DNA from: Acidobacteriaceae bacterium
Lineage (GTDB): Bacteria; Acidobacteriota; Terriglobia; Terriglobales; Acidobacteriaceae
Assembly (NCBI GenBank): GCA_030041435.1
Contig: JASHNW010000066.1
Span: 1 to 64,000, forward strand
Direction: 5' to 3'
DNA: 64,000 nt
The translations under genes were made by a program, and so were the position numbers. Shown here in pieces: positions 3,350 through 15,679 of the stretch; the first letter of the stretch is position 1, and each line of letters starts with the position of its first letter. The notes beneath the pieces were generated by a model. The model did not search any database, had not been told where the DNA came from, and saw only the letters and a program-made list of their open reading frames with translations.

Positions 3350-4834
3350 TCAGCCCTCAGCTTTCGCGATCCGCTCGGTCATGATCTGGAAGTGATACCC
3401 CATTACGGCCATGGTCATGGCTGCGCCGAAAGAACGACGGTGCCGGGTCGCCGCTGCGAGCAGAAATCTCCAGTAGCTGAGCCTGGATTTTCCCAGCACG
3501 CCCAGGCGCAGCATGGCGAGGCACAGGGCGCGCACATTGCCAAAGCTGATGTTCGCCTGGTATCGGGGCCGACAGCGGCTGAGATAAGCCCGCACCCTCG
3601 CGTAATACGCCTCGCGGTCGTAGATGCGCCGCAGGACGGAACGGTAGCCCTCGACCAGACGGGTCGAGTTCATGCGCGGCAGAAAATTCAGCTCGCAGCC
3701 CGTGTTGTTGCCGCCGCCCGCGTGCAGGATGCGGCCCTCGCCGGAAAGTCGACGAAAGAGCCGCGTGCCCGGCATGGCCTGCAGCAGGCCCACCATGGCA
3801 ATGGGAATCTCGCTCTTCTCGATGAAATCGACGAGCCGGTCGAAGACGTCTTCGCGGTCGGTGTCGAAACCGAGGATGAATCCGCCCATCACCTCGATGC
3901 CGTATTGCTGGATGAGGCGAATGCTCGCGAGCAGATTGCGCCGCGTGTTTTGCAGCTTGTGCGCCGCCACCAGGCTGGATTCGTCCGGTGTCTCGATGCC
4001 GAGAAATACCGAAGCGAAGCCGGCGTCCTTCATCGCCTGGAGCAGATGGAGATCGTCGGCAAGATTGAGCGATGCTTCGGTGATGAAGCGGAAGGGGTAG
4101 CGATGCGCCGCCTGCCATTCCGCCATGGCCGTCAGCAGTTCGCGCACGCGCACTTTGTTGCCGATGAAGTTGTCGTCGACGATGAAGACGGGGCCGCGCC
4201 AGCCGGCAGCGTACAGCTGGTCGAATTCGGCCAGCGCTTGCGCCACTGCTTTCGTGCGCGGACGGCGGCCGTAGATTTCGACGATGTCGCAGAACTCGCA
4301 GTTGAACGGACAGCCGCGCGAATACTGCACCGTCATGGTGCTGTATCGGTTCATGCGGATGAGGCTGAGCATGGGCAGCGGGCTGCGCTCCATCGAGGGC
4401 CGCTCGACGGCCTGATACGCCGCGCTGGCCTCGCCGCGCTCGAGATCCCGAGCCAGGCCGGCCATCAGATCCTCGGCTTCCCCAATCACGACGTGATCGG
4501 CCTCCAGCTCCGACGCAGGCACGCTGCTGGCGATTGGACCGCCGACCACGGTGCGGCAGCCATGGGCACGGCAGCGGCGCACGATGGAGACGAGGTCCTG
4601 CTGCTGCACGTGCATCCCGCTGAGGAAAACAACGTCGGCCCATGCAAGATCGCTGTCGCGCAGCCGCTCTACGTTCGTATCCACCAGCCGCTTGCTCCAC
4701 GATTCCGGCAACAGCGCAGCAACGGTCATCAGACCCAGCGGAGGCTGCGCGGCGCGCTTGCCCTGGAAGGAAAGCGCATAGCGAAAGCTCCAATACGTAT
4801 CGGGAAAGCGCGGATAAACAAGCAGCACATTCAC
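3350..4834 (-). CDS. B12-binding-domain radical SAM protein (DUF4070 type)
   Basis: The 494-residue protein has an N-terminal cobalamin-binding-like Rossmann domain (MNVLLVYPRFPDTYWSF to about residue 140, with VVGGP) followed by a radical SAM barrel with the cluster motif C-x3-C-x2-C (CPFNCEFC, about residue 175). The C-terminal extension resembles DUF4070. The opening YALSFQGKRAAQPPLGL is shared with a broad family that includes hopanoid methylases such as HpnP and many uncharacterised enzymes. It probably uses SAM, an iron-sulfur cluster and perhaps cobalamin for methyl transfer or another radical step; the substrate is unknown. It stands alone, and no hopanoid gene lies in the window. Confidence 0.8.
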   Translation of the reverse strand: MNVLLVYPRFPDTYWSFRYALSFQGKRAAQPPLGLMTVAALLPESWSKRLVDTNVERLRDSDLAWADVVFLSGMHVQQQDLVSIVRRCRAHGCRTVVGGPIASSVPASELEADHVVIGEAEDLMAGLARDLERGEASAAYQAVERPSMERSPLPMLSLIRMNRYSTMTVQYSRGCPFNCEFCDIVEIYGRRPRTKAVAQALAEFDQLYAAGWRGPVFIVDDNFIGNKVRVRELLTAMAEWQAAHRYPFRFITEASLNLADDLHLLQAMKDAGFASVFLGIETPDESSLVAAHKLQNTRRNLLASIRLIQQYGIEVMGGFILGFDTDREDVFDRLVDFIEKSEIPIAMVGLLQAMPGTRLFRRLSGEGRILHAGGGNNTGCELNFLPRMNSTRLVEGYRSVLRRIYDREAYYARVRAYLSRCRPRYQANISFGNVRALCLAMLRLGVLGKSRLSYWRFLLAAATRHRRSFGAAMTMAVMGYHFQIMTERIAKAEG

Positions 4835-4989
4835 GGATTCGTCTCCGCCGCATCAGGCGCTGGCTGTTCAATTCAGATGGGACAAATCCGCGCGCCGCGG
4901 CTACGGTCAGTGTGGCGTTTCTGTGCCGGGCGTTCACGCGCTGGTACGAAAAGATTACAAACGGCACGTGACCACGGTAATGCACCAAA

Positions 4990-5024
4990 CAAAAAAGAAA
5001 GCGGACCGAAGTCCGCTTTCTTGT
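4990..5024 (-). terminator. Rho-independent terminator of the HU gene
   Basis: A perfect 12-bp stem (4995-5006 with 5011-5022) closes a four-base loop that reads TTCG on the HU strand inside a C-G pair, an especially stable tetraloop. It is followed in the gene direction by TTTTTGTTTGG. It begins about 20 bases after the HU stop codon. Confidence 0.92.
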
Positions 5025-5043
5025 GTGATGCGGAGAACTGAAG

Positions 5044-5340
5044 CTACTTCTTCGGGGGCGCGATCGAGTCCTTAGCCGACTTCGCGACGCGGAATTTCAC
5101 CACCGTCTTGGCCTTGATCTTGATCTGTTCGCCGGTCTGCGGATTGCGGCCCATGCGCGCCTTCCGCTCCGCCTTCACCAGACGGCCGAGGCCGGGAATG
5201 ACAAAGACGCCGTTCTTCTTTGTCTCTTTAATCGCCGTCTCCGCGAGCAGGTCGAGAAACGCCGCCGACTGCTTGTTCGTGAGTTCCAGCTTCTCCGCCA
5301 GTTGCCGCACCAGCGCGGTTTTCGTCATTGTTGCTGCCAT
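5044..5340 (-). CDS. HU-family DNA-binding protein
   Basis: The 98-residue protein has the HU fold: MTKTALVRQLAEKLELTNKQ helix pair, the VFVIPGLGRLVKAERKARMGRNP arm region with GRNPQTGEQIKI, and KFRVAKSAKDSI near the end. It bends and compacts DNA as a dimer. The length is that of HU/IHF proteins with a short Pro-Lys tail. The gene is monocistronic: a strong terminator follows it and a 379-base gap precedes it. A TTGACA hexamer at 5504-5499 on this strand could be a -35 box, but I found no matching -10. Confidence 0.95.
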   Translation of the reverse strand: MAATMTKTALVRQLAEKLELTNKQSAAFLDLLAETAIKETKKNGVFVIPGLGRLVKAERKARMGRNPQTGEQIKIKAKTVVKFRVAKSAKDSIAPPKK

Positions 5341-5719
5341 AGAATCTTCCTCCTTTATGTTGCCTGTTCCGGACCGCCCGAAGGCGATCCTGCACCGGAA
5401 CCCCCGGAAACCGATGCGCGCCCATATGCAGAAGAGCCAGTATTGACGCGGGTCCGGAAGAACCTGCCGCCGTTAACCTTGCGGCTTTCAGCAGCGTTTG
5501 TCAATGGGAAAACCTCGGTTTCCACAGGATTTTTGCGGTTTTCCCTGGTTTTTCTCTGGAAAACCCCTAAAAATGCCCGTTTCCCGAGTAGAAGATACAC
5601 GCCTAACCGCGTCCCAGCCGCCTCCGAAGCGGGTTCCACGATGTTTCGTTGCTCGCGTGGAGTGTAGTCCCTGCGTCGCCATTGGTAAAGGCCGTTACCG
5701 CGGAAACTCAGGTCGGAAG
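5341..5719. other. Gene-free stretch upstream of HU
   Basis: These 379 bases separate HU from the DUF2461 gene on the same strand. The middle part (about 5505-5580) is AT-richer, with runs of GGAAAACC and GGTTTTTC, as expected for a strong promoter and leader. No open frame here is convincing. Confidence 0.4.
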
Positions 5720-6442
5720 TTACTTCGGCAACAGATGAGCCGCCCAGGCCGGGCACCGCTTCTCCGGTTTAGCCATGGGCTCGTTCAGAAAATTCACCAG
5801 CGGCGTTGCCATCCGGAACCGCCTCTCCACCTCCGCCGCCAGGTTCGGCTTGAGCGCTTCTTCTGCCGGCAAATGCGCGGTCACGCCCCACTGCCGCCAT
5901 TGAATCCACTCCATCGCCGGATGTTCGGCGGGGAATCCCCTGGGCGGCCGCGACAGCGACATGGGATCGTGCACGCTGAAGGCGCGCAGCAGTTTTTTGT
6001 CCTCGATCAGCCGCCGAAATGCCGCGTGATCTTCGAGCAGACGCCGCCGGATGGCCAGCGTTTGCTCTTTCTCCGGCATGTACGCGCCAGCCGCGATCAC
6101 CAGCTCCGTGGCGCTCACATGCAGGTAATAGCCGGCCCCCGAGGTCTTTTCCATCCCCTTGCGCGACCACCACGCGCCAAGGTGCGTCTTGTAGGGCGTT
6201 TTGTCCGCAGAGAAGCGCGTATCACGATAAATGCGAAAGAGAATCTTCGCCGCGGGGCGCATGTGCTCGGGGGCGTATTGGGCCATGCCTGCCGTCACCC
6301 GCTCGATCAGCGCCAGCATGGGCCTCTTCACTTCCTGCTCGAAGGTGGAGCGTTGCTCCTCGAACCACTCGCGCCGGTTGTTCCGTTTCAATCCTCGAAA
6401 AAAGCGCAGCGCCTCCTGGCTGAAATGCGGCTGGCTGGTCAT
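5720..6442 (-). CDS. DUF2461 domain-containing protein
   Basis: The 240-residue protein fits the DUF2461 (TIGR02453) family: FSQEALRFFRGLKRNNRREWFEEQRSTFE at the start, then RIYRDTRFSADKTPYKTHLGAWW with its conserved D-T-R-F-x-x-D-K-x-P-Y-K-T, and GAGYYLHVSATELVIAAGAYMPEKEQ. The family is widespread and has no established function. It stands alone and is divergent from the next gene. A second ATG eight bases upstream opens a two-codon frame (ATGAGCGAATGA) that overlaps the start; this may be chance. Confidence 0.85.
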   Translation of the reverse strand: MTSQPHFSQEALRFFRGLKRNNRREWFEEQRSTFEQEVKRPMLALIERVTAGMAQYAPEHMRPAAKILFRIYRDTRFSADKTPYKTHLGAWWSRKGMEKTSGAGYYLHVSATELVIAAGAYMPEKEQTLAIRRRLLEDHAAFRRLIEDKKLLRAFSVHDPMSLSRPPRGFPAEHPAMEWIQWRQWGVTAHLPAEEALKPNLAAEVERRFRMATPLVNFLNEPMAKPEKRCPAWAAHLLPK

Positions 6443-6525
6443 TCGCTCATTTTAATCACCTGGGCCCGCCCGAAAGGAGGCGTAACCGGTTGCCCGCAAC
6501 CGTGCTGACCCGTCACACTGGACAC

Positions 6526-7008
6526 ATGCGTCTCCTCCAGCTTTCCGCGCTGTTCCTGGGCCTGGCCGGCTCTGTGGCCGGCCAGGCCTCGGCAGCCGCA
6601 TTCCCGCTTCCGGCACCGGCTCCGCCCGCGGCACAGCACCGCCTCAGCCTGCGCCAGGCACGGCAGATCGCCTTGCTCGTCGCGCGTCACGACCACATCG
6701 ATCTCACCGACACGCACATCGAGTTCAACAGCATGGACCTGGGCGCCGATTTCATTCCCGGCTACTCGAGCTTCATCGTCATTCGCGAGAGCAGCACGCC
6801 CGGCCCCGACGAAACGCTGCGCCGCTACGCCGTCAACCGCGCCACAGGCGATGTCTGGGAGATGACGCTCTGCACGCACTATGACTTTCCCGAACTCCGC
6901 CGCATGCTGAAGACCTTTGCCGTGCAGGCAGGCACATCAGCCGGCGCCGTCGCTGCGCAGAGCAAGGAGCTCGGGTGCACGGAGCTGAAGACCGCGCCGA
7001 CGCTCTGA
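6526..7008 (+). CDS. Hypothetical exported protein
   Basis: The 160-residue protein is not recognised. From the ATG at 6526 it begins with a signal peptide (MRLLQLSALFLGLAGSVAGQ, cleavage likely near ASA-AA). A short Pro-rich linker is followed by a compact domain of about 120 residues (LSLRQARQIALLVARHDHID onwards) with one DVWEMTLCTHYDFPE segment and two cysteines. A longer frame from a TTG at 6490 exists, but it would put 12 residues before the signal peptide. It converges on the PgsA-like gene. Function unknown. Confidence 0.6.
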   Translation: MRLLQLSALFLGLAGSVAGQASAAAFPLPAPAPPAAQHRLSLRQARQIALLVARHDHIDLTDTHIEFNSMDLGADFIPGYSSFIVIRESSTPGPDETLRRYAVNRATGDVWEMTLCTHYDFPELRRMLKTFAVQAGTSAGAVAAQSKELGCTELKTAPTL

Positions 7009-7012
7009 GGAT

Positions 7013-7591
7013 TCACCCCTGGCCCGCGACTTCCGGGGCTCCGATTTGCCTCACCGCTCTCCAGGCGTAGTGGAACCCTGAGAACAGCGTGAGCACGACC
7101 GTTGCCGAGAGGCTCCATTGGCGCAGGGTAAGCACCCAGGCCGGGTGCCAGGTTTGGCTCAGGATCACCGACGCCAAGGCCAGAATCTGCGCGACCGTAT
7201 TCGACTTGCCGAAAATGCTCGGCTTGAAATTGCGAATCGACGTGGTGGCGAAGAGCACAGCGCCTACCACCAGAATTCCGAGATCTCGCGCGAAGACCAG
7301 CACCGTGACGCGCAGAGAGAGCAGCCCCTCGTGGTGCAGCACAAGAAAAAGCGTGCTCAGCATCAGCTTGTCCACCACCGGGTCAAGGTACTGCCCCAGC
7401 ATCGTCCGCTGATGCAGGACCCGGGCCAGCAGCCCGTCGAGCGCATCGGTCACTCCGGCCAGAACAAACAGCGCGAACGCGGCCTGGAAGTGGCCGTCGA
7501 GAACTGCCAGCACCAGAAAAGGCACGATGCAGAGGCGGAAAAACGTCAGGAGGTTGGGAGTCGCCCGAAAATCGTTCATTGCTTCCAGCAT
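7013..7591 (-). CDS. pgsA: CDP-alcohol phosphatidyltransferase, probable PgsA
   Basis: The 192-residue protein starts with the NLLTFFRLCIVPFL helix typical of PgsA. It carries the full CDP-alcohol phosphotransferase signature D-x2-D-G-x2-A-R-x8-G-x3-D-x3-D (DALDGLLAR, GQYLDPVVD, about residues 48-73). It has about five membrane helices. The likely reaction is CDP-diacylglycerol plus glycerol-3-phosphate to phosphatidylglycerophosphate, at the inner membrane. A paralogue with another alcohol acceptor is possible. The start at 7591 could instead be the ATG four codons later. Confidence 0.8.
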   Translation of the reverse strand: MLEAMNDFRATPNLLTFFRLCIVPFLVLAVLDGHFQAAFALFVLAGVTDALDGLLARVLHQRTMLGQYLDPVVDKLMLSTLFLVLHHEGLLSLRVTVLVFARDLGILVVGAVLFATTSIRNFKPSIFGKSNTVAQILALASVILSQTWHPAWVLTLRQWSLSATVVLTLFSGFHYAWRAVRQIGAPEVAGQG

Positions 7592-7770
7592 CTCAGCCGG
7601 CCTGAATTTGGCACGGCCTCGACAGCGTCACAAACCATCCATACTAATGCACCGCGCCCGGGTTCGAACGGCAAACCTGCGCCGGTCCTCGCGCGGCGGC
7701 CATCGCGGAGCTCCGCCAACGCTTCGGCCATCGCGATCCTGCTATCATGAAATTCACAGGTACCCGCTGT

Positions 7771-7847
7771 AGGCGCGTAGCTCAGTTGGTTAGAGCGCTA
7801 CCTTGACACGGTAGAGGTCAGGAGTTCGAGTCTCCTCGTGCCTACCA
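7771..7847 (+). tRNA. tRNA-Val (anticodon GAC), CCA encoded
   Basis: A full cloverleaf can be drawn: acceptor 7771-7777 with 7837-7843 (one G-U), T8-A9, D arm, anticodon stem CTACC/GGTAG around TTGACAC giving anticodon GAC, T arm AGGAG/CTCCT with TTCGAGT loop, discriminator A and encoded CCA at 7845-7847. It reads GUC and GUU valine codons. Confidence 0.95.
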
Positions 7848-7904
7848 TTCCCTCGCGAACAATTTGAATTTTCAGCGACCCCGATGCGGGTCCGGCTGCG
7901 TCTG

Positions 7905-7950
7905 ACAACAAAACGGCGGGACCAGGATGGTTCCGCCGTTTTGCGTTTTA
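7905..7950. terminator. Bidirectional terminator between tRNA-Val and norZ
   Basis: A 14-bp stem with one G-U pair (7910-7923 with 7929-7942) is flanked by A-rich sequence on the left and TTTT-GCG-TTTT on the right, so it can end transcription of the tRNA rightwards and of norZ leftwards. Confidence 0.85.
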
Positions 7951-7975
7951 GCATGGCCCTGAGTCAGCCGCCGGA

Positions 7976-10261
7976 TCAGTCGCCGGCCACGAGTACACCC
8001 TCCTTCTCCTCGATCGTGGAGGTGCTCCCTGCGATCGGCCGCGCGTAGGAGTGCCCGGTGATGAGCCCAACGACAAAGAGCCCGAGGATCGCCGCTCCGG
8101 CCGCGAACAGCACATCGCCCGGTACCCGCATCCAGCGCAGGAACTGCATCGACGGAGTCTGCAGGAAATCGGCCGAGCGAGCGTACCAGGTGCCCTGCTG
8201 GATCGATGCAATCGCCTGCAAAATGCCGATGGGCAACATGCTGATGACCACCATGAACGTGAGCCCGAGGTTGATCAGCCAGAAGGCCAGCTGCAGCGGG
8301 CGCTCCTTCCACTGCACGCCCGGCCGAATTGCCCGCAGGCAGAAGAGCGTAAGCCCCAGGCCCAGCATGCCGTACACGCCGAACAAGGCCGTGTGTCCAT
8401 GGACCGGGGTGAGGTTCAGGCCCTGCATGTAATAAAGCGCGACCGGCGGGTTGATGAGGAAGCCGAACAATCCCGCGCCGACCATGTTCCAGAAAGAGAC
8501 CGCAACAAAGAAATAGATAGGCCACTTGTAGTTCGCCACCCACGGAGCGCTGCTCCTGCCCCGGGCCAGGCGAATGTTCTCCCAGGCCTCGTAGCCGACG
8601 AGCGTCAGGGGGACGACTTCCAGAGCGCTGAAGACAGCGCCCAGAGCGATGACCGCCGGTGACGATCCTGCGAAGTACAGGTGGTGAAACGTCCCGATGA
8701 TGCCGCCCGACAGAAAGATGGTCGTCGAGAAAAGCACCGTGCGGGTGGCGGAGCGAATCTCCAGCAGGTTGAGCCGTGTGAACAGAAAAGCAATCACCAC
8801 GGTGGCAAATACTTCGAAGAAGCCCTCGACCCAGAGGTGAACCACCCACCAGCGCCAGTATTCGGCGGTGACCAGCTCGCTGCGCTGGCCGTACATGAGT
8901 CCGGCCGCGTAGAAAAGAGGAATCGCGATGCTGGAAATGAGGAACAGCACCATGAGAGGGCGGCTCTCGCTGCTGCGCACCAGCGCAGGCTTGAGAGCGC
9001 GGACCATGAGGAAGAGCCACAGGACCAGTCCCACAAACAGCAGGATCTGCCAGAACCGCCCGAGGTCCACATAGGTGTAGCCCTGATCGCCAAACCAGAA
9101 CCAAAGGTTGCCGAGCTTCTGCTCGATGCCGAACCACTCACCGGCCAGCGACCCGCCCACCACCAGGACCAGTGCGCCGAACAGCACGTTCACGCCCAGC
9201 CGCTGCCCCTTCGGCTCATGCCCGCTCACCGCCGGGCCCACGTAGAGGCCGGTTGCCAGCCACGACGTCGCGATCCAGAAGATCGCAAGCTGGATGTGCC
9301 AGGTGCGCGTGACCGCATAGGGCAGGATCCTGTCGAGATGGATGCCGTAGAACCCGCCGCCCTCCACGCCGTAGTGCGCGGTAAGAGCGCCCATCGCGAT
9401 TTGCACGCCCCACAGCGCCACCACCACAAAGAAGTACTTCATGGTGGCGCGCTGGCTGGGCGTTGCCTTCAGGCTTAGAAACGGATCTTTGCGGGGAAAC
9501 GCCGGGTGAAAATCGGGCTTCTCCTGCGACGCATACCACCAGACGAGGCCGCCGATGCCCGCCAGGAGAAACACGAAGCTGAGGATGCTCCAGAGAATCG
9601 CAGAGGGCGCAGGGCCGTTCGCCACCAGCGCCTCATGCGGCCAGTTGTTTGTATAGGTGATGCTGCTGCGGGGGCGATCCGTGTGCGCGGCCCACGAAGT
9701 CCACCAGAAGAACGCGGCCATTTGCTGCTGCTTCGCCGGATCGGTAAGCGCGCCGGCAGGAATGGCGTATTCCTTCCGTCCCGCGCTGAAGACATCGGCA
9801 TAATACGCGGCAAGCTGGTGGATGGCCGTTGCCGTATCGTCGCTGACAATGATGCGCCGGGCGACGGGGTCGTAGGTGTTCTTCCGCATCTCGCGAATCA
9901 GACGGGCCCTGAGAACCGCCTGCTGGTCGAGGCTGAGAGCGGCAAAGTTTGCCGCCCCTTCGCGCTGCGCCCAGAGGTCGAGCCGGATGAGGGATTCGCG
10001 ATGCAGCCAGTCGGCGGTCCAGTCGGGTGCGACATAGGCGCCATGGCCCCACACGGTGCCGATCTCCTGCCCGCCGATGGACTGCCAGACGTTCTGCCCG
10101 TCGGTGATGGCCGAGCCGGTAAAGAGCAACTGACCGTCCGTGGTGTAGACGTCGGGAAGGGGCGGAGCTTCGCTGATCATCTTCCGCCCCACTCCTCCGA
10201 GAACGGCGAACGATCCAACAATGACGATGGCCAGGGCCACCCAATAACGCTTATAAGACAT
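7976..10261 (-). CDS. norZ: Quinol-dependent nitric oxide reductase, single-subunit (NorZ/qNor type)
   Basis: The 761-residue protein reduces 2 NO to N2O with electrons from quinol, in the inner membrane. The N-terminal region (GQNVWQSIGGQEIGTVWGHG to about residue 215) is the periplasmic NorC-like extension of qNor without a haem-c motif. The rest is the 12-helix NorB core. TRTWHIQLAIFWIATSW and HGHTALFGVYGML carry haem-b ligands. HLWVEGFFEVFATV carries the FeB histidine and the nearby glutamates, and GTFHHLYFAG the other two FeB histidines. A GTGAC-N4-GTCAC type operator sits 90 bp upstream, with a -10-like box exactly 32 bp from its centre. It is divergent from the octahaem cytochrome gene and is the central NO-removing enzyme of the island. 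Confidence 0.93.
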   Translation of the reverse strand: MSYKRYWVALAIVIVGSFAVLGGVGRKMISEAPPLPDVYTTDGQLLFTGSAITDGQNVWQSIGGQEIGTVWGHGAYVAPDWTADWLHRESLIRLDLWAQREGAANFAALSLDQQAVLRARLIREMRKNTYDPVARRIIVSDDTATAIHQLAAYYADVFSAGRKEYAIPAGALTDPAKQQQMAAFFWWTSWAAHTDRPRSSITYTNNWPHEALVANGPAPSAILWSILSFVFLLAGIGGLVWWYASQEKPDFHPAFPRKDPFLSLKATPSQRATMKYFFVVVALWGVQIAMGALTAHYGVEGGGFYGIHLDRILPYAVTRTWHIQLAIFWIATSWLATGLYVGPAVSGHEPKGQRLGVNVLFGALVLVVGGSLAGEWFGIEQKLGNLWFWFGDQGYTYVDLGRFWQILLFVGLVLWLFLMVRALKPALVRSSESRPLMVLFLISSIAIPLFYAAGLMYGQRSELVTAEYWRWWVVHLWVEGFFEVFATVVIAFLFTRLNLLEIRSATRTVLFSTTIFLSGGIIGTFHHLYFAGSSPAVIALGAVFSALEVVPLTLVGYEAWENIRLARGRSSAPWVANYKWPIYFFVAVSFWNMVGAGLFGFLINPPVALYYMQGLNLTPVHGHTALFGVYGMLGLGLTLFCLRAIRPGVQWKERPLQLAFWLINLGLTFMVVISMLPIGILQAIASIQQGTWYARSADFLQTPSMQFLRWMRVPGDVLFAAGAAILGLFVVGLITGHSYARPIAGSTSTIEEKEGVLVAGD

Positions 10262-10316
10262 AGGAATTCCTCTTGAGTAAATGCGCGGTGCTGTGCTGCA
10301 TGCCGGTCATGGAGCC

Positions 10317-10322
10317 AGAGTA
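10317..10322 (-). promoter_or_regulatory. -10-like element of norZ
   Basis: TACTCT on the minus strand keeps the key TA---T positions. Its centre lies exactly 32 bp downstream of the centre of the operator at 10345-10358, the spacing of a class II Crp-activated promoter (site at -41.5). Start of transcription would be near 10310. Confidence 0.5.
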
Positions 10323-10344
10323 GCTGCCGGATTGCGACGATGCA

Positions 10345-10358
10345 GGGACTTATGTCAC
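10345..10358. promoter_or_regulatory. Predicted Crp/Fnr-family operator, norZ proximal
   Basis: GGGAC-TTAT-GTCAC matches the island palindrome GTGAC-N4-GTCAC with one mismatch. It lies 84-97 bp before the norZ ATG and is one of four such sites in the island. Confidence 0.6.
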
Positions 10359-10414
10359 AGGCTGGGAATACAATCCACTTCGGCCATCATGCCGACCACC
10401 GGCGCAATCGAAAA

Positions 10415-10428
10415 GTGATCGATATCAC
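10415..10428. promoter_or_regulatory. Predicted Crp/Fnr-family operator, octahaem-gene proximal
   Basis: GTGA-TCGATA-TCAC fits the CRP-type half-sites GTGA-N6-TCAC exactly. Its centre is 147 bp before the octahaem ATG. On the plus strand, weak -10 candidates lie downstream (TTTCAA at 10451, TCAAAT at 10453). With the site at 10345, it gives two operators in the 307-base divergent gap 10262-10568, which otherwise holds nothing I can identify. Confidence 0.6.
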
Positions 10429-10568
10429 ACGACAGCGGTGGCAGTGGCAATTTCAAATCGGCGCAAGTACCTGCCGGTGACAAAAACCGATTCGAATTGT
10501 TAGAGTGTTTCGATCTTCACACCGCGACCCTGAGACAGAGATTCATCTTTCTTCGGAGGCTGGCTGGC

Positions 10569-11804
10569 ATGTCGTTCCGCTCTGTCTTTGTGGCCGTCGT
10601 GATCGGCTTCGCGCTGATCCTCTCCGCTTTCCTCATCAACCGGGCGCGGCCGCGGGTGGAAACCAGCCAGCCCACCGCGGATTTTGTCCGTGCCTCCGGC
10701 AAATGCGCGGAGTGCCACGCCCGCCTGCAGTATTCCGTCGTGCATGAGTACGAGATGTCGGCGCACGCGCGAAAAGGCGTGAACTGCCTCGACTGCCACC
10801 AGCCTGCTCCAGGGCAGCAGAAGAAGGATCATCACGGCTTCGTGATCGCAACGCACCTGACCGCCGGCAATTGCCGCGCCTGCCACGAGACCATTTATCA
10901 GGAATTTCTGCGCAGCCGGCATGCCGCGCCCGCGTGGGCTGCCATTTACGGCGAACAGGGTCTCACTCCGGAGCAGGTCGCGTTCTCCGAGCAGTACCAG
11001 CCCGGAGGCACCCGGCGGCCGCCGCATCCTTTCGTCAAGGCCGAAGGCGCTTCCGCCATGATCAGCGGGTGCGAGCAGTGCCACTCCATTGGCAAGCCGA
11101 ACGACGACGGCACCATCGGCACCTGCACGGATTGCCACTCGCGCCATACCAGTTCCGTGGAGCTGGCGCGCCTGCCCAGCACCTGCGGGCAGTGCCACAT
11201 GGGCCCCGATCATTCCCAGATGGAGATCTACAACGAGTCGAAGCACGGCGTGATGTTTGCGGCGCAGAGGAACATCCTCAACCTGCAGGCGCCGCCGGAT
11301 ACTCTGACCACGCGGGATATGTTCGTGCCCACCTGCGCCACTTGCCATATGTCCGGCATCGACGGCCTCAAGGTGACCCACGATCCATCCGATCGCCTCT
11401 CGTGGTTCCTGGCGAGCGCCATCTCCACGAAGCGGCCGAATTACTACCGCGCCCAGGCCGCCATGAAACAGGTCTGCGAGCAGTGCCACACGGCAGCCAC
11501 CGTCGACCGCGTTTACGAGCAGGCCGAGCAGGTTATCCTCACCACCAATGCCCGCGTGCAGCACGCGCAGGACATTGTGAACAAGCTGCACGCCGACGGC
11601 TCGCTGCAGGGGCCGCCGTTCTCCAATCCCATCGACTTTCTGTATTTCGACATGTGGCACTACGACGGCCGCACCGCGAAGCATGCCGCCTTTATGGGCG
11701 GAGCCGATTTTGTGCAGTGGCACGGCAACTATCCCATGCTGCAGAAGACCGTCGAGCTGGAGCACATGGCCGCGCAGCTGCGAGGGCAGCATGGAGGGGA
11801 ATAG
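10569..11804 (+). CDS. Octahaem cytochrome c, HAO/ONR-like
   Basis: The 411-residue protein has an N-terminal membrane anchor (residues 5-24) and eight CxxCH haem sites at C46, C73, C102, C168, C186, C206, C256 and C303. The MGPDHSQMEIYNESKHGVMF stretch and the C-terminal DMWHYDGRTAKHAAFMGGADF/VQWHG block are characteristic of hydroxylamine oxidoreductase-like octahaem proteins. In oxidative HAO the D-Y-T-x-W-H-G tyrosine cross-links to the P460 haem (recalled, not aligned here); here that position is Phe381. A reductive role (nitrite, NO or hydroxylamine reduction, as for epsilon-HAO) is therefore more likely. The ATG at 10569 has a GGAGG site; the TTG at 10497 is less likely. The stop overlaps the next gene by 14 bp, so the two are translationally coupled. 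Confidence 0.85.
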   Translation: MSFRSVFVAVVIGFALILSAFLINRARPRVETSQPTADFVRASGKCAECHARLQYSVVHEYEMSAHARKGVNCLDCHQPAPGQQKKDHHGFVIATHLTAGNCRACHETIYQEFLRSRHAAPAWAAIYGEQGLTPEQVAFSEQYQPGGTRRPPHPFVKAEGASAMISGCEQCHSIGKPNDDGTIGTCTDCHSRHTSSVELARLPSTCGQCHMGPDHSQMEIYNESKHGVMFAAQRNILNLQAPPDTLTTRDMFVPTCATCHMSGIDGLKVTHDPSDRLSWFLASAISTKRPNYYRAQAAMKQVCEQCHTAATVDRVYEQAEQVILTTNARVQHAQDIVNKLHADGSLQGPPFSNPIDFLYFDMWHYDGRTAKHAAFMGGADFVQWHGNYPMLQKTVELEHMAAQLRGQHGGE

Positions 11805-12723
11805 CCTGCTCCTGCGCTGCCGCCGCGTCGTCCTCGATCCGCGCCTGCGCTGGGCACACGATCCGCAGCTCTGGCTGGAGCTGTTTGTGACTGCCAATCT
11901 GGCCATCCTCGCCGGAGATATTTACATCGCGCACTCGGTCAATCAGTTCGGCAAGCCGGCGGAATACGTCCCGCTCTATTTCTCCATTGCCGGCGCCGTC
12001 GTCCTCGCCGCCGTCGTCGCTCTGCGCTGGATCGCGGGGATGGTTGCCCCGTGGCGCATCGCGGGCAATATCGTTGCCTGGGCCGCGATCCTGACTGGAC
12101 TGGCCGGCGTGCTCTACCACCTGGATTGCCGGTTTTTTGCGGAGAGGACGCTGAAGAGCATCACCTACGCCGCGCCGTTTGCCGCGCCGCTGTCGTACAC
12201 CGGCCTCGGCTTTCTGCTGCTCATGAACCGCATGGTGCAACCCCGCGGCGCCGACTGGGCGCGCTGGGTCATGTTCCTTGCGCTGGGAGGGTTCTTCGGC
12301 AACTTCGTGCTCTCGCTCACCGACCACGCCTCCAACGGGTTCTTCCTGCGAACCGAGTGGATTCCCGTCGTCTCGTCCGCCTTCGCCGTCGGATTTCTCA
12401 TGGTTCCCCTGATCTCCACGGTCACACGCCGCTTCCTCGACGTGTGCCTGCTGGTTTTGCTCGGCCAGGCGCTGGTCGGTATGCTTGGCTTCTGGTTTCA
12501 CCTGCGCGCGAATCTGGTTGAGCCGGGGCACACCCTGTTTGAGAAACTGGTGAACGGCGCGCCTCCCATGGCTCCGCTGCTGTTCCCGAACCTCGTCGGT
12601 CTGGCGATGATTGGCCTTTGGGCGCTGATTCCGCACCTGCCGGAAGCCGCGCAGGGCCGCTCCTGGCTGGGAGCGACCTGGGTTTGGGCGCATCCCGAAG
12701 AGCCGGCGAGCTCCGCAACCTAA
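11791..12723 (+). CDS. Eight-helix membrane protein coupled to the octahaem cytochrome
   Basis: The 310-residue protein is not a family I recognise. Eight hydrophobic helices can be seen (from LELFVTANLAILAGDIYIAH to LFPNLVGLAMIGLWALIPHL), with short charged loops and several histidines near membrane edges (AHSV, LYHLDC, TDHA, FWFHL). The ATG at 11791 lies inside the end of the cytochrome gene, in another frame, so the products are probably made together and may form a complex. I infer a quinol-oxidising or haem-binding membrane subunit feeding the octahaem protein. Its stop codon overlaps the stop of the NnrS-like gene in the CTAA at 12720-12723. Confidence 0.8.
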   Translation: MEGNSLLLRCRRVVLDPRLRWAHDPQLWLELFVTANLAILAGDIYIAHSVNQFGKPAEYVPLYFSIAGAVVLAAVVALRWIAGMVAPWRIAGNIVAWAAILTGLAGVLYHLDCRFFAERTLKSITYAAPFAAPLSYTGLGFLLLMNRMVQPRGADWARWVMFLALGGFFGNFVLSLTDHASNGFFLRTEWIPVVSSAFAVGFLMVPLISTVTRRFLDVCLLVLLGQALVGMLGFWFHLRANLVEPGHTLFEKLVNGAPPMAPLLFPNLVGLAMIGLWALIPHLPEAAQGRSWLGATWVWAHPEEPASSAT

Positions 12724-14087
12724 GCGGACGCACGCCGTGGCTCGGCAGCGGCGAAGATGCTCGGTTCCAGCGTAAACGTGAGGATGAGCTGTAGCGCGAA
12801 GAGGAGCACGGCGCCGAGTTCAAGGCATCCGGAGAACGGCAGCAGCTTCCACGCAAAGGGCAGAATGCCCTCATAAGCCAGCGGCTCCATGCTGACGCGC
12901 AGCGTGCATCCGGCAAATAACAGCAGGAGCGTTGCAAACATCAGCCGCGGGCTCCGAAGCCCACGCACGCCGGCGAAGTGGGGCAGAATGCGCGGCCCCA
13001 CCGTCATCACCATCATCGCGGCGAAGCCCACCGTTAGCGCGTGGCGCGATCCGCCCCAGATGCCGCCATGCACATCGGACCACGATGCCCAGATACCCAG
13101 CAGCGAGGCCGCGATCGACCATGCATACGCGAGGCGCAGAAAGAAGGGGAAGCTGGGATGGAGGCCGATGGTCTTCGCCGGGCGTTCCGGCACAGGGAAT
13201 ACCCGCATGGCAATAGCGGCCAGAATAGCCGCAGCCGCCAGCAGCGGCGCCATCAGAATCGTTTGGTGCACCATTCCCAGCACCACCCCGATCAGATCCA
13301 CGGCCACGGCAATCTGCAGCAGCCGACCCCGCACCGGCGCCGCGCCGAGAAAGATGGGAAGCCACCGCGCGGAGAATCCCCACACCAACGGCGCCAGGAA
13401 TCCCCAGCCGAGCAGCACCAGAAAGCTCTGATCGAACCGGTGAGGAATTGCGGGTGCGGCGCCGTCGATGGCCAGCCGCACACCCTCGACGAAGTTGATC
13501 GCCAACGCCACCAGCAGCGCAGCGTTGCTGACCAGAACGGATTGCATCCACGGCTCAATGCGCGGTTGTGTGCGCGCCCGGGCTTCGCCTGAGCCAGCAC
13601 CCGCTGTGGGCAGCTTGTGCTGCCGCGCAGCATGGAGAAACAGCAGAATCGCGGCAAACTGCAGCCCTCCGGCAATGGGCAGGACCACACGCCACTGCCA
13701 GAGATAGCCGACAGCGAGCCAGTGCAGCGTCAGCCCTGCGGTCCACAGGCCCCAGCAGGTAATCGGAAGGCGCCCACGGTTGGCGCGCGTGTGCGGCTGC
13801 GAATAGAAGCCGATGCCCAGCACAAAGCTGCCAATCCAGCCGAACACCTGGGAGAAGCCGTGCGCCTGAATCCACGCTGGCGAGATCGCCTGGAGGCCAT
13901 GGTGCGCGCTGATGGCCAGCAGGTTGCTGAATCCCAGCACCGTCCCCGGAAGCACCATGAAGAAGATGCCCGTGCCAATCCAAAAACGTAACAGAAAGCT
14001 CTTCCGGCGCTCGGCAGCGACAACCGCAGCGCGATCGCCCGCAGGGGTTGCAGGGTTGGACAGGGTATCGACGAGAATGGCGGACAT
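12720..14087 (-). CDS. NnrS-like haem-copper membrane protein
   Basis: The 455-residue protein has about 12 membrane helices. The segment GGSRHALTVGFAAMMVMTVGPRILPHFAG matches the conserved H-A-L-T-x-G block of NnrS, and further histidines occur in helices (GFSNLLAISAHHGLQ, LTLHWLAVGYLWQW, GMVHQTILMAPLL). NnrS proteins accompany denitrification and NO-stress genes and help cells under NO; the exact reaction is not settled. Identification rests on the motif, the size and the setting between the octahaem genes and the Crp/Fnr regulator. An operator-like palindrome lies 47-60 bp upstream, but I see no good -10 box next to it. Confidence 0.72.
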   Translation of the reverse strand: MSAILVDTLSNPATPAGDRAAVVAAERRKSFLLRFWIGTGIFFMVLPGTVLGFSNLLAISAHHGLQAISPAWIQAHGFSQVFGWIGSFVLGIGFYSQPHTRANRGRLPITCWGLWTAGLTLHWLAVGYLWQWRVVLPIAGGLQFAAILLFLHAARQHKLPTAGAGSGEARARTQPRIEPWMQSVLVSNAALLVALAINFVEGVRLAIDGAAPAIPHRFDQSFLVLLGWGFLAPLVWGFSARWLPIFLGAAPVRGRLLQIAVAVDLIGVVLGMVHQTILMAPLLAAAAILAAIAMRVFPVPERPAKTIGLHPSFPFFLRLAYAWSIAASLLGIWASWSDVHGGIWGGSRHALTVGFAAMMVMTVGPRILPHFAGVRGLRSPRLMFATLLLLFAGCTLRVSMEPLAYEGILPFAWKLLPFSGCLELGAVLLFALQLILTFTLEPSIFAAAEPRRASA

Positions 14088-14133
14088 GAATCTCTCCTGC
14101 TGCCAGCTTCACGGCAGGAGACGCCCCCGGGCA

Positions 14134-14147
14134 GTGACATTGGTCAC
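14134..14147. promoter_or_regulatory. Predicted Crp/Fnr-family operator, nnrS-like gene
   Basis: GTGAC-ATTG-GTCAC is a perfect GTGAC-N4-GTCAC palindrome in the 78-base gap between the regulator gene and the NnrS-like gene, both on the minus strand. Its centre is 53 bp before the NnrS-like ATG, so activation from -41.5 would leave a very short leader. Confidence 0.65.
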
Positions 14148-14165
14148 GCCCGCTGAAACAAATTT

Positions 14166-14876
14166 TTACGAGCTGCTCTCGAGGATTGCCGTCAGCCCCG
14201 GCATATCGCGCACCACGATGCTGCGCGCCTCCACCTGCAGCAGGCCCTCCGCCTGCAGCCGCATCAGGTTGCGCGAGACCAACTCGCGCACCGTGCCCAG
14301 TTGATGGGCCATCTCCTGGTGCGTCCCCGGCAGGTCGAACTCGATGCCCAGTTCGGACCGCCGGCCTTCTGTCTGCGCCATTCGGACCAGCGCGGCAACC
14401 AGCCTCTGCCGCACTGTGGTGAAGGACAGCTCCTCAATAATGCCCACCAGCCGCCGCAGCCGCGCCCCAACCACGGCGAGCATCTTAAGCGCCACTTCGG
14501 GATGTTCCAGACAAAAACTGCGCAAATCCTGGCGGGAGATGAAGAGAATCTGCGCATCCTCCACCGCGCTCACCGACGCCGGATAGGGACCGCCGTCGAA
14601 GACCGGCAGCTCAGCCACCGATCCTCCCGGGCCCTCCACCGCCAGCACCTGCTCACGCCCGCTCGCGGAGCTCTTGAAGATGCGCAGCCTGCCGCTTTCG
14701 ATGATGTAGAGGCCGTTGCAGGGATCGCCCTCGGAAAATAACAGCTCACCCTGGGAAAACTTCCTGCGTACGAAGCGCGCCGCCAGCAGGTGAACTTCTT
14801 CCGGCGAAAGCTCCGAGAAGAGGGCCACAGCCGCAAGGGCCGTCGAAACATTTCTGGTTTCTGCCATCGCGGGCAT
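14166..14876 (-). CDS. Crp/Fnr-family transcription regulator, probable NO/N-oxide sensor
   Basis: The 236-residue protein has a cyclic-nucleotide-type sensor domain (about residues 15-130: LFSELSPEEVHLLAARF, YIIESGRLRIF, GGSVAELPVFDGGPYPASV), a long dimer helix, and a winged helix (GTHQEMAHQLGTVRELVSRNLMRL is cited by position: 184-207). The recognition helix has R197-E198-x3-R202, the CRP pattern that reads GTGA half-sites, not the Fnr pattern for TTGAT. The Fnr four-cysteine N-terminus is absent (only C53 and C122), so oxygen sensing by a 4Fe-4S cluster is unlikely; haem-based NO sensing as in DNR is possible. A perfect operator lies just upstream and covers its own promoter region, suggesting autoregulation. 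Confidence 0.88.
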   Translation of the reverse strand: MPAMAETRNVSTALAAVALFSELSPEEVHLLAARFVRRKFSQGELLFSEGDPCNGLYIIESGRLRIFKSSASGREQVLAVEGPGGSVAELPVFDGGPYPASVSAVEDAQILFISRQDLRSFCLEHPEVALKMLAVVGARLRRLVGIIEELSFTTVRQRLVAALVRMAQTEGRRSELGIEFDLPGTHQEMAHQLGTVRELVSRNLMRLQAEGLLQVEARSIVVRDMPGLTAILESSS

Positions 14877-14896
14877 TCTAACGAATTTCCCCGGCC

Positions 14897-14912
14897 TGTG
14901 ACTTTAGTCACA
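14897..14912. promoter_or_regulatory. Predicted Crp/Fnr-family operator between regulator and ric
   Basis: TGTGAC-TTTA-GTCACA is a perfect 16-base palindrome matching CRP half-sites TGTGA-N6-TCACA. It lies between the divergent regulator and ric genes, 47-62 bp before the ric ATG. Confidence 0.75.
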
Positions 14913-14933
14913 GCGCACGCGCGGTCGGCCCGT

Positions 14934-14939
14934 TAATTT
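14934..14939 (+). promoter_or_regulatory. -10-like element of ric
   Basis: TAATTT keeps the TA---T core and is centred exactly 32 bp from the centre of the operator at 14897-14912, the same spacing as at norZ. Transcription would start near 14946, only 14 bases before the ATG. Confidence 0.55.
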
Positions 14940-14959
14940 TCGATGCAGGAGAGTTCCTC

Positions 14960-15679
14960 ATGAGCATCGCTGAGACTACCGTTCGCGAAATCGCCCTCGA
15001 AAACCCGGCATCCATTCGCGTCTTTGAGAAATTTGGCATCGACTATTGCTGCGGTGGCCGCAAACCGCTCGCCCAGGCCTGCGCGGAGCGTGCCCTGGAC
15101 CCAACGGCGGTGCTCGCCGCCCTCGAGACCGCCGCAGAGCCACCCGACCACGGCGCAACGGACTGGACCACGGCATCGCTCGAGTCTCTCTGCAACCACA
15201 TCGTCCAGACGCATCATGAATATGTCCGGGCAGCGATCCCTCGCCTCACGGAACTGGCGCGGAAAGTGGTGTCGCGGCACGGAGCCGACCGTTCCGAGCT
15301 GCCCCGCATTCAGCAGCTCATTCACAGCCTCGGCGAAGAGCTTCTGCAGCACCTCGGCAAAGAGGAGAGCATCCTCTTTCCGTACATCGCCAATCTGGAG
15401 CGCAATCTCGCCAGCTGCGGTCCCCGCTCGCTGGGCTGCTTCGGAACGGTGAGGAATCCCATTCACGTCATGATGGCCGAGCACGACGCCGCCGGCGACA
15501 TCCTCGCCCAGATTCGCCAGCTCAGCAACGGCTACACGCCGCCCGTCGGCGCCTGCCCCACCTACTTCGGCTTCTATCAGGCGCTCTCCGACTTCGAGCG
15601 CGACCTGCACCAGCACATTCATCTCGAGAACAACATCCTCTTCCTGCGCGCCATCGAAATGGAAGAGAGCTGCGGCTGA
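14960..15679 (+). CDS. ric: Iron-sulfur cluster repair di-iron protein (RIC/YtfE/ScdA)
   Basis: The 239-residue protein has the ScdA N-terminal domain (TTVREIALENPASIRVFEKF, then DYCCGG with C30 and C31) followed by a hemerythrin-like four-helix domain. Candidate di-iron ligands are the histidines and glutamates in HIVQTHHEYV, HLGKEESILFP, EHDAAGDI and HQHIHLENNILF. Family members repair iron-sulfur clusters damaged by NO or peroxide, and E. coli YtfE also turns over NO. The length is normal (about 220-250). An ideal Crp-type operator and -10 box lie upstream, so it is very likely a target of the divergent regulator. Confidence 0.92.
   Translation: MSIAETTVREIALENPASIRVFEKFGIDYCCGGRKPLAQACAERALDPTAVLAALETAAEPPDHGATDWTTASLESLCNHIVQTHHEYVRAAIPRLTELARKVVSRHGADRSELPRIQQLIHSLGEELLQHLGKEESILFPYIANLERNLASCGPRSLGCFGTVRNPIHVMMAEHDAAGDILAQIRQLSNGYTPPVGACPTYFGFYQALSDFERDLHQHIHLENNILFLRAIEMEESCG

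Follow-up and report, generated by a model that had tools for sequence, protein, structure and literature searches.

What is an octahaem cytochrome c doing among genes for defence against nitric oxide (NO)? The question is raised by a 64,000-nucleotide stretch of the genome of an Acidobacteriaceae bacterium (assembly GCA_030041435.1, contig JASHNW010000066.1, positions 1 to 64,000; hereafter the window). Six genes adjoin one another at 7976-15679 of the window. They encode a quinol-dependent NO reductase (qNor), an octahaem cytochrome c (OCC), an eight-helix membrane protein (MEM), an NnrS-like membrane protein, a Crp/Fnr-family regulator and the iron-sulfur cluster repair protein Ric. A sequence-only reading had described them as a self-contained island with shared palindromes in its gaps, and had assigned OCC and MEM to the same NO response as their neighbours. 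Matches to Pfam, NCBIfam and PDB entries and AlphaFold2 models locate all six genes as it described. Our analysis shows that the real unit is the OCC-MEM pair, not the six-gene island. We propose, with a probability of about 0.55, that OCC and MEM form one quinol-fed, membrane-bound octahaem reductase of nitrite, NO or hydroxylamine, which has been drafted together with qNor, NnrS and Ric into an NO regulon.

Relatives of the pair were collected from 299 genomes of the window's class, from a phylum sample of 396 genomes, and from a wide scan of one genome per species in 84,980 species (GTDB 220). The wide scan used two peptide patterns from the MEM alignment, which favour close relatives of MEM. 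It gave 167 relatives and the best 80 were kept, some of which are near kin or two copies from one genome. OCC is located directly upstream of MEM in all 80 loci. It was found by tblastn in 79, and in the remaining one (L136) the contig edge leaves the final 26 codons of OCC in place. Likewise, MEM follows all 14 nearly full-length OCC matches of at least 42% identity in the phylum sample. The two frames overlap in 59 of the 69 loci measured, with starts chosen by script, and share 14 bases in the window. Among the best 80, the pair is found in six phyla: Acidobacteriota, Planctomycetota, Verrucomicrobiota, Poribacteria, Zixiibacteriota and Neomarinimicrobiota. In the class search, MEM was matched in 23 of the 299 genomes (14 strong and long matches, one remnant and eight members of a distant family). 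Another frame of at least 100 residues with at least three CxxCH motifs is present in 3/80 loci (L102, L118 and L127). In L127, two frames with 25 and 23 CxxCH are located on the other strand just before OCC-MEM (4003-8382) and could point to other electron routes there.

OCC is uniform across these loci. All 70 full-length orthologues contain exactly eight CxxCH motifs and 407-424 residues, and the mean column identity is 69% over 60 sequences. The nearest solved proteins by profile are IhOCC from Ignicoccus hospitalis (4qo5, E 6e-31) and the hydroxylamine oxidoreductase (HAO) family. The AlphaFold2 model of OCC, with a predicted local distance difference test score (pLDDT) of 81, aligns with 4qo5 over 349 residues (Z 26.0, root-mean-square deviation (rmsd) 2.4). 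Kuenenia HOX (Z 22.5), Kuenenia reducing HAO (6h5l, 21.8) and Nitrosomonas HAO (21.7) follow. Altogether, HAO, HOX, HAOr and HDH give Z values of 21.0-22.5, versus at most 9.8 for NrfA and ONR. The match of OCC to the NrfA family PF02335 (Cytochrom_C552) reaches 18.4 bits, below the cut-off of 24.1. By its predicted model, OCC belongs to the HAO fold and not to NrfA or ONR.

Asp214, His215, His226, Met376 and Trp384 of OCC are invariant in 60/60 sequences. In HAO, an Asp-His pair has a catalytic role, and Asp214-His215 aligns with it. Met376 and Trp384 are eight apart, the spacing seen in epsilon-Hao; the presumed placement of Trp384 at the Tyr position rests on this spacing. Epsilon-Hao is marked by a Trp where HAO has its cross-link Tyr, preceded by a Met at a distance of eight residues (PMC8940962; here and below, statements cited by PMC number refer to the accessible part of each article). 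A missing Tyr cross-link goes with reduction in the HAO family (PMC8940962, PMC12758564). With these residues, OCC looks like a reductive member of the family. Its N-terminal helix (residues 1-28) is nearly as conserved as the rest of the protein (0.70 versus 0.73), which would fit a fixed partner in the membrane.

Nine more distant OCCs were also read (35-40% identity, 437-470 residues), and tblastn found MEM beside none of them. In L088-L091 (Acidobacteriota), the operon around the distant OCC reads by eye as a Rieske protein, cytochrome b and a NapA-like molybdoenzyme, together with a porin-like protein and a tetrahaem cytochrome. L096 (7457-11595) has a further, independent OCC-qNor neighbourhood that lacks MEM: a distant OCC, a cupin-like gene and a qNor-like gene follow one another on the same strand.

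MEM is the constant partner. Its AlphaFold2 model (pLDDT 92.9) contains eight long helices in two four-helix bundles. Asp43, His48, Glu58, His110, Asp178, His179, Glu189 and His237 are invariant in 61/61 sequences and occupy matching places in the two halves, at one end of the helices. The segments expected inside carry more Lys and Arg (N-terminus 3.07, then 1.54, 1.61 and 1.74, C-terminus 1.31; sum 9.3) than those expected outside (0.93, 1.51, 0.48 and 0.92; sum 3.8). This favours an N-terminus on the inside, and therefore the invariant residues are probably at the periplasmic face. MEM contains no CxxCH. The window copy has no Pfam match, and the 61 members give only scattered weak ones. 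Foldseek returned no match to the model with an E value of 0.001 or lower. The VIA-align list is headed by 3dby and 3d19, both soluble proteins of Bacillus (Z 15.6, rmsd 3.9-4.0, 230-240 residues), a similarity that may reflect only a common helical-bundle arrangement. Quinol dehydrogenases of the NrfD/PsrC type also consist of two four-helix bundles. Neither NrfD-type proteins nor any other known quinol dehydrogenase was recognised among the Foldseek and VIA-align matches listed for MEM, which, with no direct comparison of profiles made, excludes nothing.

A distant family with the same His pattern gives a further indication of what MEM may do. It aligns with MEM over 237 columns in hhalign (probability 96.6%, E 5e-10) and has no Pfam family of its own. 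In the five loci read (L043-L047, Acidobacteria), its duplicated, paired-His members are located near GMC oxidoreductase-like genes; in L046, the one tested, Pfam confirms GMC and gluconate 2-dehydrogenase subunit 3. GMC-type dehydrogenases need a membrane electron acceptor, so the superfamily may be read as a quinone-side module. We tentatively suggest, as a possibility short of our main proposal, that MEM is the founding member of a hitherto undescribed superfamily of redox modules, anchored in the membrane, that link the quinone pool to different periplasmic enzymes. Each of the two four-helix bundles would hold one His pair at the periplasmic face, for one b haem or metal. Paired with OCC, the module would be a quinol:nitrogen-oxide reductase that occurs in six phyla and has been recruited repeatedly by NO regulons; paired with GMC oxidoreductase plus gluconate dehydrogenase subunit 3, its direction would be reversed.

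The link of the pair to NO is carried by operator-like palindromes. The consensus in the window is GTGAC-N4-GTCAC. Two exact copies are observed, before NnrS and between the Crp gene and Ric, versus a mean of 0.0 in 10 simulated 64-kb sequences, and the gap between qNor and OCC holds a copy with one mismatch. Sites with at most one mismatch number 4 versus 1.8 expected, and those with at most two number 26 versus 27.1. Since two-mismatch sites are no commoner than expected, the site at 10415, which is a perfect palindrome of its own, is weak taken alone. In the whole genome, 25 exact copies are found versus 3 of the reversed pattern. The Crp/Fnr protein of the window has the domains of this family, and the palindrome it presumably binds is shared by the NO genes beside it, as in NO-responsive Crp/Fnr regulators. 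NO is presumably its signal. The arrangement resembles DNR/NnrR/HcpR-type regulons, in which a Crp/Fnr gene accompanies a palindrome before qNor, NnrS, Ric, NirK and bd oxidase. However, the operator differs from the TTGAT-N4-ATCAA of DNR, and no NCBIfam equivalog names the regulator above cut-off.

The regulon reaches well beyond the window. Surroundings were read for 23 of the 25 exact sites (2 in the window, 21 elsewhere; those on contigs C118 and C133 were left out). Behind sites elsewhere are a second NnrS gene (PF05940, 39 bits), a polyferredoxin and a cyclic nucleotide (cNMP)-binding protein. Another exact site reaches into the opening codons of cytochrome bd subunit I (cydA), in its longest reading frame. 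Four universal stress protein genes start at or within about 90 bases behind exact sites (L198, L200 and L208, all in the window's genome), a hint that low oxygen or dormancy is also within the scope of the regulon. The remaining exact sites are within frames or ahead of genes with no evident link. The genome also contains two NirK genes above cut-off (G000:C72:37978-38892 and C131:4211-5110). In one, a site with a single mismatch directly precedes the open frame; the other has no site. The operator-bearing NirK shares its contig with the second NnrS gene. The palindromes noted by the sequence-only reading are real, and its proposal that OCC and MEM share the response is supported. With these genes carrying the same site elsewhere, the island is not self-contained.

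In relatives, the operator is kept upstream of OCC. Eight related loci (L097, L098, L099, L100, L101, L103, L108 and L119) also have a site of no more than one mismatch in the qNor-OCC gap. Over 71 regions upstream of OCC, whose rows are related to one another, 20 contain such a site, versus a background mean of 1.74 and a maximum of 6 in 200 draws. The site is present in 12/20 regions grouped with NO genes, a group that includes three loci (L124, L131 and L152) with a Crp gene but none of qNor, NnrS, Ric or Hcp, and in 8/51 of the others. Five of these eight (L109, L110, L113, L115 and L116) have it at about -102. The one-mismatch sites of L123, L124 and L131, near -340, are probably due to chance. 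A single palindrome common to all OCC upstream regions was considered and rejected, since the operator is absent, at one mismatch or fewer, from 51 of the 71. The only other palindrome that stands out is TTGAC-N4-GTCAA, at -105 to -112 in four Verrucomicrobia copies (L142, L151, L152 and L154), and a diverged Crp gene is found in the same loci.

NO genes also recur beside the pair. qNor, NnrS, Ric or Hcp is found in the fetched flank, short in many cases, of 16/80 loci (qNor 12, NnrS 7, Ric 7, Hcp-like 6). Of the 30 loci whose flanks exceed 8 kb on the upstream side of OCC and 10 kb on the downstream side, 7 contain such a gene. The Hcp-like genes are in three loci of the Verrucomicrobia clade and three of Acidobacteriaceae, and Pfam Prismane was confirmed in both loci tested. 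NO genes are close to OCC-MEM in four lineages (Acidobacteriaceae, Bryobacterales, Sulfotelmatobacter and Verrucomicrobiota) and in differing orders. In Acidobacteriaceae, qNor is divergent from OCC. In L139 (Bryobacterales), the NO genes form an upstream block with a Crp gene adjoining OCC. In L142, L151 and L154 (Verrucomicrobiota), the order is OCC-MEM-qNor on one strand, and L135 has Ric and Crp without qNor. At the density of qNor in the class (71/299 genomes, with roughly a single copy per genome and a genome size of about 5 Mb assumed), chance would place about 0.06 copies in the 1.2 Mb of flanks, versus the 12 loci seen in at least three arrangements; this estimate extends the class density to other phyla, and the loci are not independent. 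On a tree of OCC, 7 changes are needed to explain the label 'NO genes nearby', of which starred branches force at least 6, versus a mean of 14.4 after shuffling; the tree was built by a quick method, 22/57 inner branches are unsupported, and the label is on 16/60 rows. One of these, L152, is labelled for its Crp, cupin and DGC genes alone, and shares a contig with L142.

The exact six-gene order was not met again in the 80 loci of the wide scan or in a set of 20 loci, and a six-gene conserved unit was rejected. The two sets partly share contigs, and some loci (e.g. L098) are too short to tell. A conserved neighbourhood in relatives, which the sequence-only reading required, is present as NO genes near OCC-MEM and not as one conserved set. 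In the nearest loci, L097, L101 and L103, an additional Ric is located between NnrS and Crp. Next come genes for a radical-SAM protein, a hemerythrin, a polyferredoxin and Hcp, followed by an outer Ric (58-59% identity). L108 resembles these loci and lacks a clustered Hcp, and L099 has the inner Ric and ends earlier. From these comparisons, the island in the window looks like a shortened form of its relatives' cluster.

Several damaged loci were seen. L041 (G183) keeps NnrS and Ric beside a remnant of MEM. In a Granulicella sp. metagenome-assembled genome (MAG), an intact OCC-MEM is located beside a broken qNor (L119/L029), and in Acidobacteria bacterium AB60 OCC is split by a frame change (L030/L117).

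For the direction of the reaction, its substrate and the cofactors of MEM, we infer the following course. Quinol would give electrons to MEM at the periplasmic side, where each bundle may hold one bis-His b haem or a metal. From MEM, electrons would pass along the haem chain of OCC to its active haem, which would reduce nitrite, NO or hydroxylamine, most likely towards ammonium. The presumably NO-responsive Crp/Fnr regulator, at GTGAC-N4-GTCAC, would switch on OCC-MEM together with qNor, NnrS and Ric, and would reach one NirK, the second NnrS, the polyferredoxin and cytochrome bd elsewhere in the genome. qNor would turn NO into nitrous oxide (N2O). NO from NirK or from neighbours would then have two quinol-fed outlets, qNor and OCC-MEM, in addition to repair.

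A number of observations weigh against this proposal. None of qNor, NnrS, Ric and Hcp is found in the fetched flank of 64/80 OCC-MEM loci, or in 23 of the 30 with long flanks. In the class sample, in which some genomes are incomplete, qNor is no commoner in genomes with OCC-MEM (3/14) than in the others (68/285), and these counts rejected an obligatory tie of the pair with qNor. L119 retains the pair next to its broken qNor, and of L099 and L121, which belong to the same MAG, only one has NO genes. The 51 OCC upstream regions without an operator at one mismatch or fewer point the same way. No cofactor or quinone site is evident in the MEM sequence, and its best VIA-align rows are soluble helical bundles. 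In OCC, the HMMER alignments to HAO stop before the cross-link Tyr, and its presumed absence therefore comes from the Met/Trp spacing. Because OCC-MEM is often found with no NO genes nearby, the pair must serve a purpose independent of them, for which general nitrogen-oxide reduction is a better fit than service to qNor.

One alternative is that OCC-MEM is a nitrite reductase that makes NO for qNor, in a short respiratory denitrification rather than a defence. The fold of OCC is that of Kuenenia reducing HAO, nitrite reduction to NO by HAOr has been reported (PMC12758564), and qNor is nearby in 12 of the 80 loci. Nevertheless, we consider this unlikely. The genome already has two NirK genes, one with an operator, and the neighbours of the pair include repair (Ric) and, in the six loci above, Hcp-like genes. 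In addition, 11 of the 14 class genomes with OCC-MEM have no qNor at E 1e-80, so NO made there would lack qNor.

Electron transfer through MEM may also be questioned. MEM might instead help to assemble or anchor OCC, or sense haem or a metal for it; OCC would then be fed by another quinol dehydrogenase. The strict pairing (80/80 and 14/14) and the invariant paired His and Glu at the presumed periplasmic face argue against this, as does the distant relative near GMC oxidoreductase-like genes, whose enzymes also need a membrane electron partner. Only 3/80 loci contain another multihaem frame as a possible cytochrome donor. We find this alternative unlikely too, even with no Pfam family for MEM, no recognised quinol dehydrogenase among the fold matches listed, and an N-terminal helix of OCC's own.

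It is quite improbable that the neighbourhood is due to chance and that OCC-MEM has a role outside nitrogen, with sulfur oxyanions or metals. The 64 loci without a nearby NO gene would agree with such a role, and the multihaem frames adjoining OCC in L127 hint at metal reduction there. However, operators are located upstream of OCC also in loci without NO genes nearby, and the proximity of NO genes in four lineages, with 12 qNor loci versus about 0.06 expected, speaks against chance. Finally, oxidation of hydroxylamine (or NO) with electrons entering the quinone pool, as by nitrifier HAO, would suit the HAO fold and the Asp-His pair of OCC and is highly improbable given the Met376/Trp384 pattern of reductive epsilon-Hao in 60/60 sequences.

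The proposed OCC-MEM reductase can be compared with known systems. The partner of epsilon-Hao is HaoC, a tetrahaem protein of the NapC/NrfH type. The locus in the window has no NapC/NrfH, Rieske or Nap gene; the neighbours of OCC are qNor and MEM. Like OCC, epsilon-Hao of Campylobacterota and Caldithrix abyssi is an octahaem cytochrome of the HAO family with the Met and Trp eight apart (PMC8940962), and nitrite reduction to ammonium has been proposed for it. OCC differs in its size of about 411 residues, its conserved N-terminal helix, the MEM gene in every locus examined and its regulation with NO defence genes. In Caldithrix, epsilon-Hao is believed to receive its electrons from ACIII or a Rieske/cytochrome b complex, with Nap beside it (PMC5317091). 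A Rieske/cytochrome b and Nap arrangement recurs here with the distant OCCs of L088-L091, as named by eye. IhOCC, the nearest solved structure by both sequence and fold, differs in being archaeal, with 521 residues and 26% identity. The Kuenenia reducing HAO complex Kustc0457/0458 (6h5l) shares the HAO fold, and HAOr, which lacks the Tyr cross-link, is a reductive member of the family (PMC12758564); the accessible text names no MEM-like partner for either. In Phycisphaerae (Planctomycetota), octahaem cytochromes detected by an HAO model have been read as putative Onr, nitrite reductases, and the accessible part of that article names no membrane partner and no link to NO defence (PMC11266412). 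No description of the OCC-MEM pair or of MEM was found in the literature searched, which had most subscription journals outside its reach. We take it that the Phycisphaerae set may include some of the OCCs found here. The kind of cytochrome that OCC appears to represent, the reductive HAO family, is already known, and the unnamed MEM family is the most novel part.

Should OCC-MEM turn nitrite, NO or hydroxylamine into ammonium, nitrogen otherwise lost as N2O would stay. The pair, which has only the general Pfam match PF13447 for OCC and none for MEM, would then become a marker for this retention of nitrogen. MEM would be a new way of coupling quinol to multihaem enzymes, for which NapC, NapGH, Rieske/cytochrome b and ACIII are the inputs discussed (PMC5317091 among the sources). 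A soil acidobacterium holds the pair among NO defence genes, and the same pair is found in six bacterial phyla. Among 24 acidobacterial genomes, nirS was found in none, nrfHA in three and complete denitrification in none; qNor-type genes were also present in strains without a dissimilatory nitrate or nitrite reductase (PMC5900883). In the window's own genome, no NrfA was found above cut-off and no Hcp was found.

Features of the island, with positions in the window (mismatches are to GTGAC-N4-GTCAC; distances, in bases, are from the centre of each site)
Feature	Position	Strand	Evidence or remark
qNor, quinol-dependent NO reductase, 761 residues, full-length	7976..10261	-	PF22085 219 bits, PF00115 199 bits
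Operator-like palindrome GGGACTTATGTCAC, 1 mismatch	10345..10358		90.5 before qNor start, 217.5 before OCC start
Palindrome GTGATCGATATCAC, perfect, 2 mismatches to consensus	10415..10428		147.5 before OCC start
OCC, octahaem cytochrome c, 411 residues, 8 CxxCH	10569..11804	+	PF13447 86 bits (cut-off 21.9)
MEM, eight-helix membrane protein, 310 residues	11791..12723	+	AlphaFold2 model; no Pfam match
NnrS-like membrane protein, 455 residues	12720..14087	-	PF05940 18.2 bits (under cut-off 28)
Exact palindrome GTGACATTGGTCAC	14134..14147		53.5 before NnrS start
Crp/Fnr-family regulator, 236 residues	14166..14876	-	PF00027 and PF13545 above cut-off
Exact palindrome GTGACTTTAGTCAC, between Crp gene and Ric	14898..14911		55.5 before Ric, 28.5 before Crp start
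Ric, di-iron iron-sulfur cluster repair protein, 239 residues	14960..15679	+	TIGR03652 238 bits (cut-off 204.7); PF04405, PF01814

Both Pfam matches of qNor are above cut-off and correspond to a NorB cytochrome c-like domain fused to a COX1-type core. Residues 3-740 match qNor in the PDB (28pn/8bgw, E 6e-243). The start of OCC is a conserved ATG, and the open frame itself opens at 10497 with TTG. The NnrS-like protein is 42% identical to its paralogue in the same genome, the second NnrS described above, which passes PF05940. Just outside the island, at the qNor end, a tRNA-Val(GAC) gene is located at 7771-7847 of the window.

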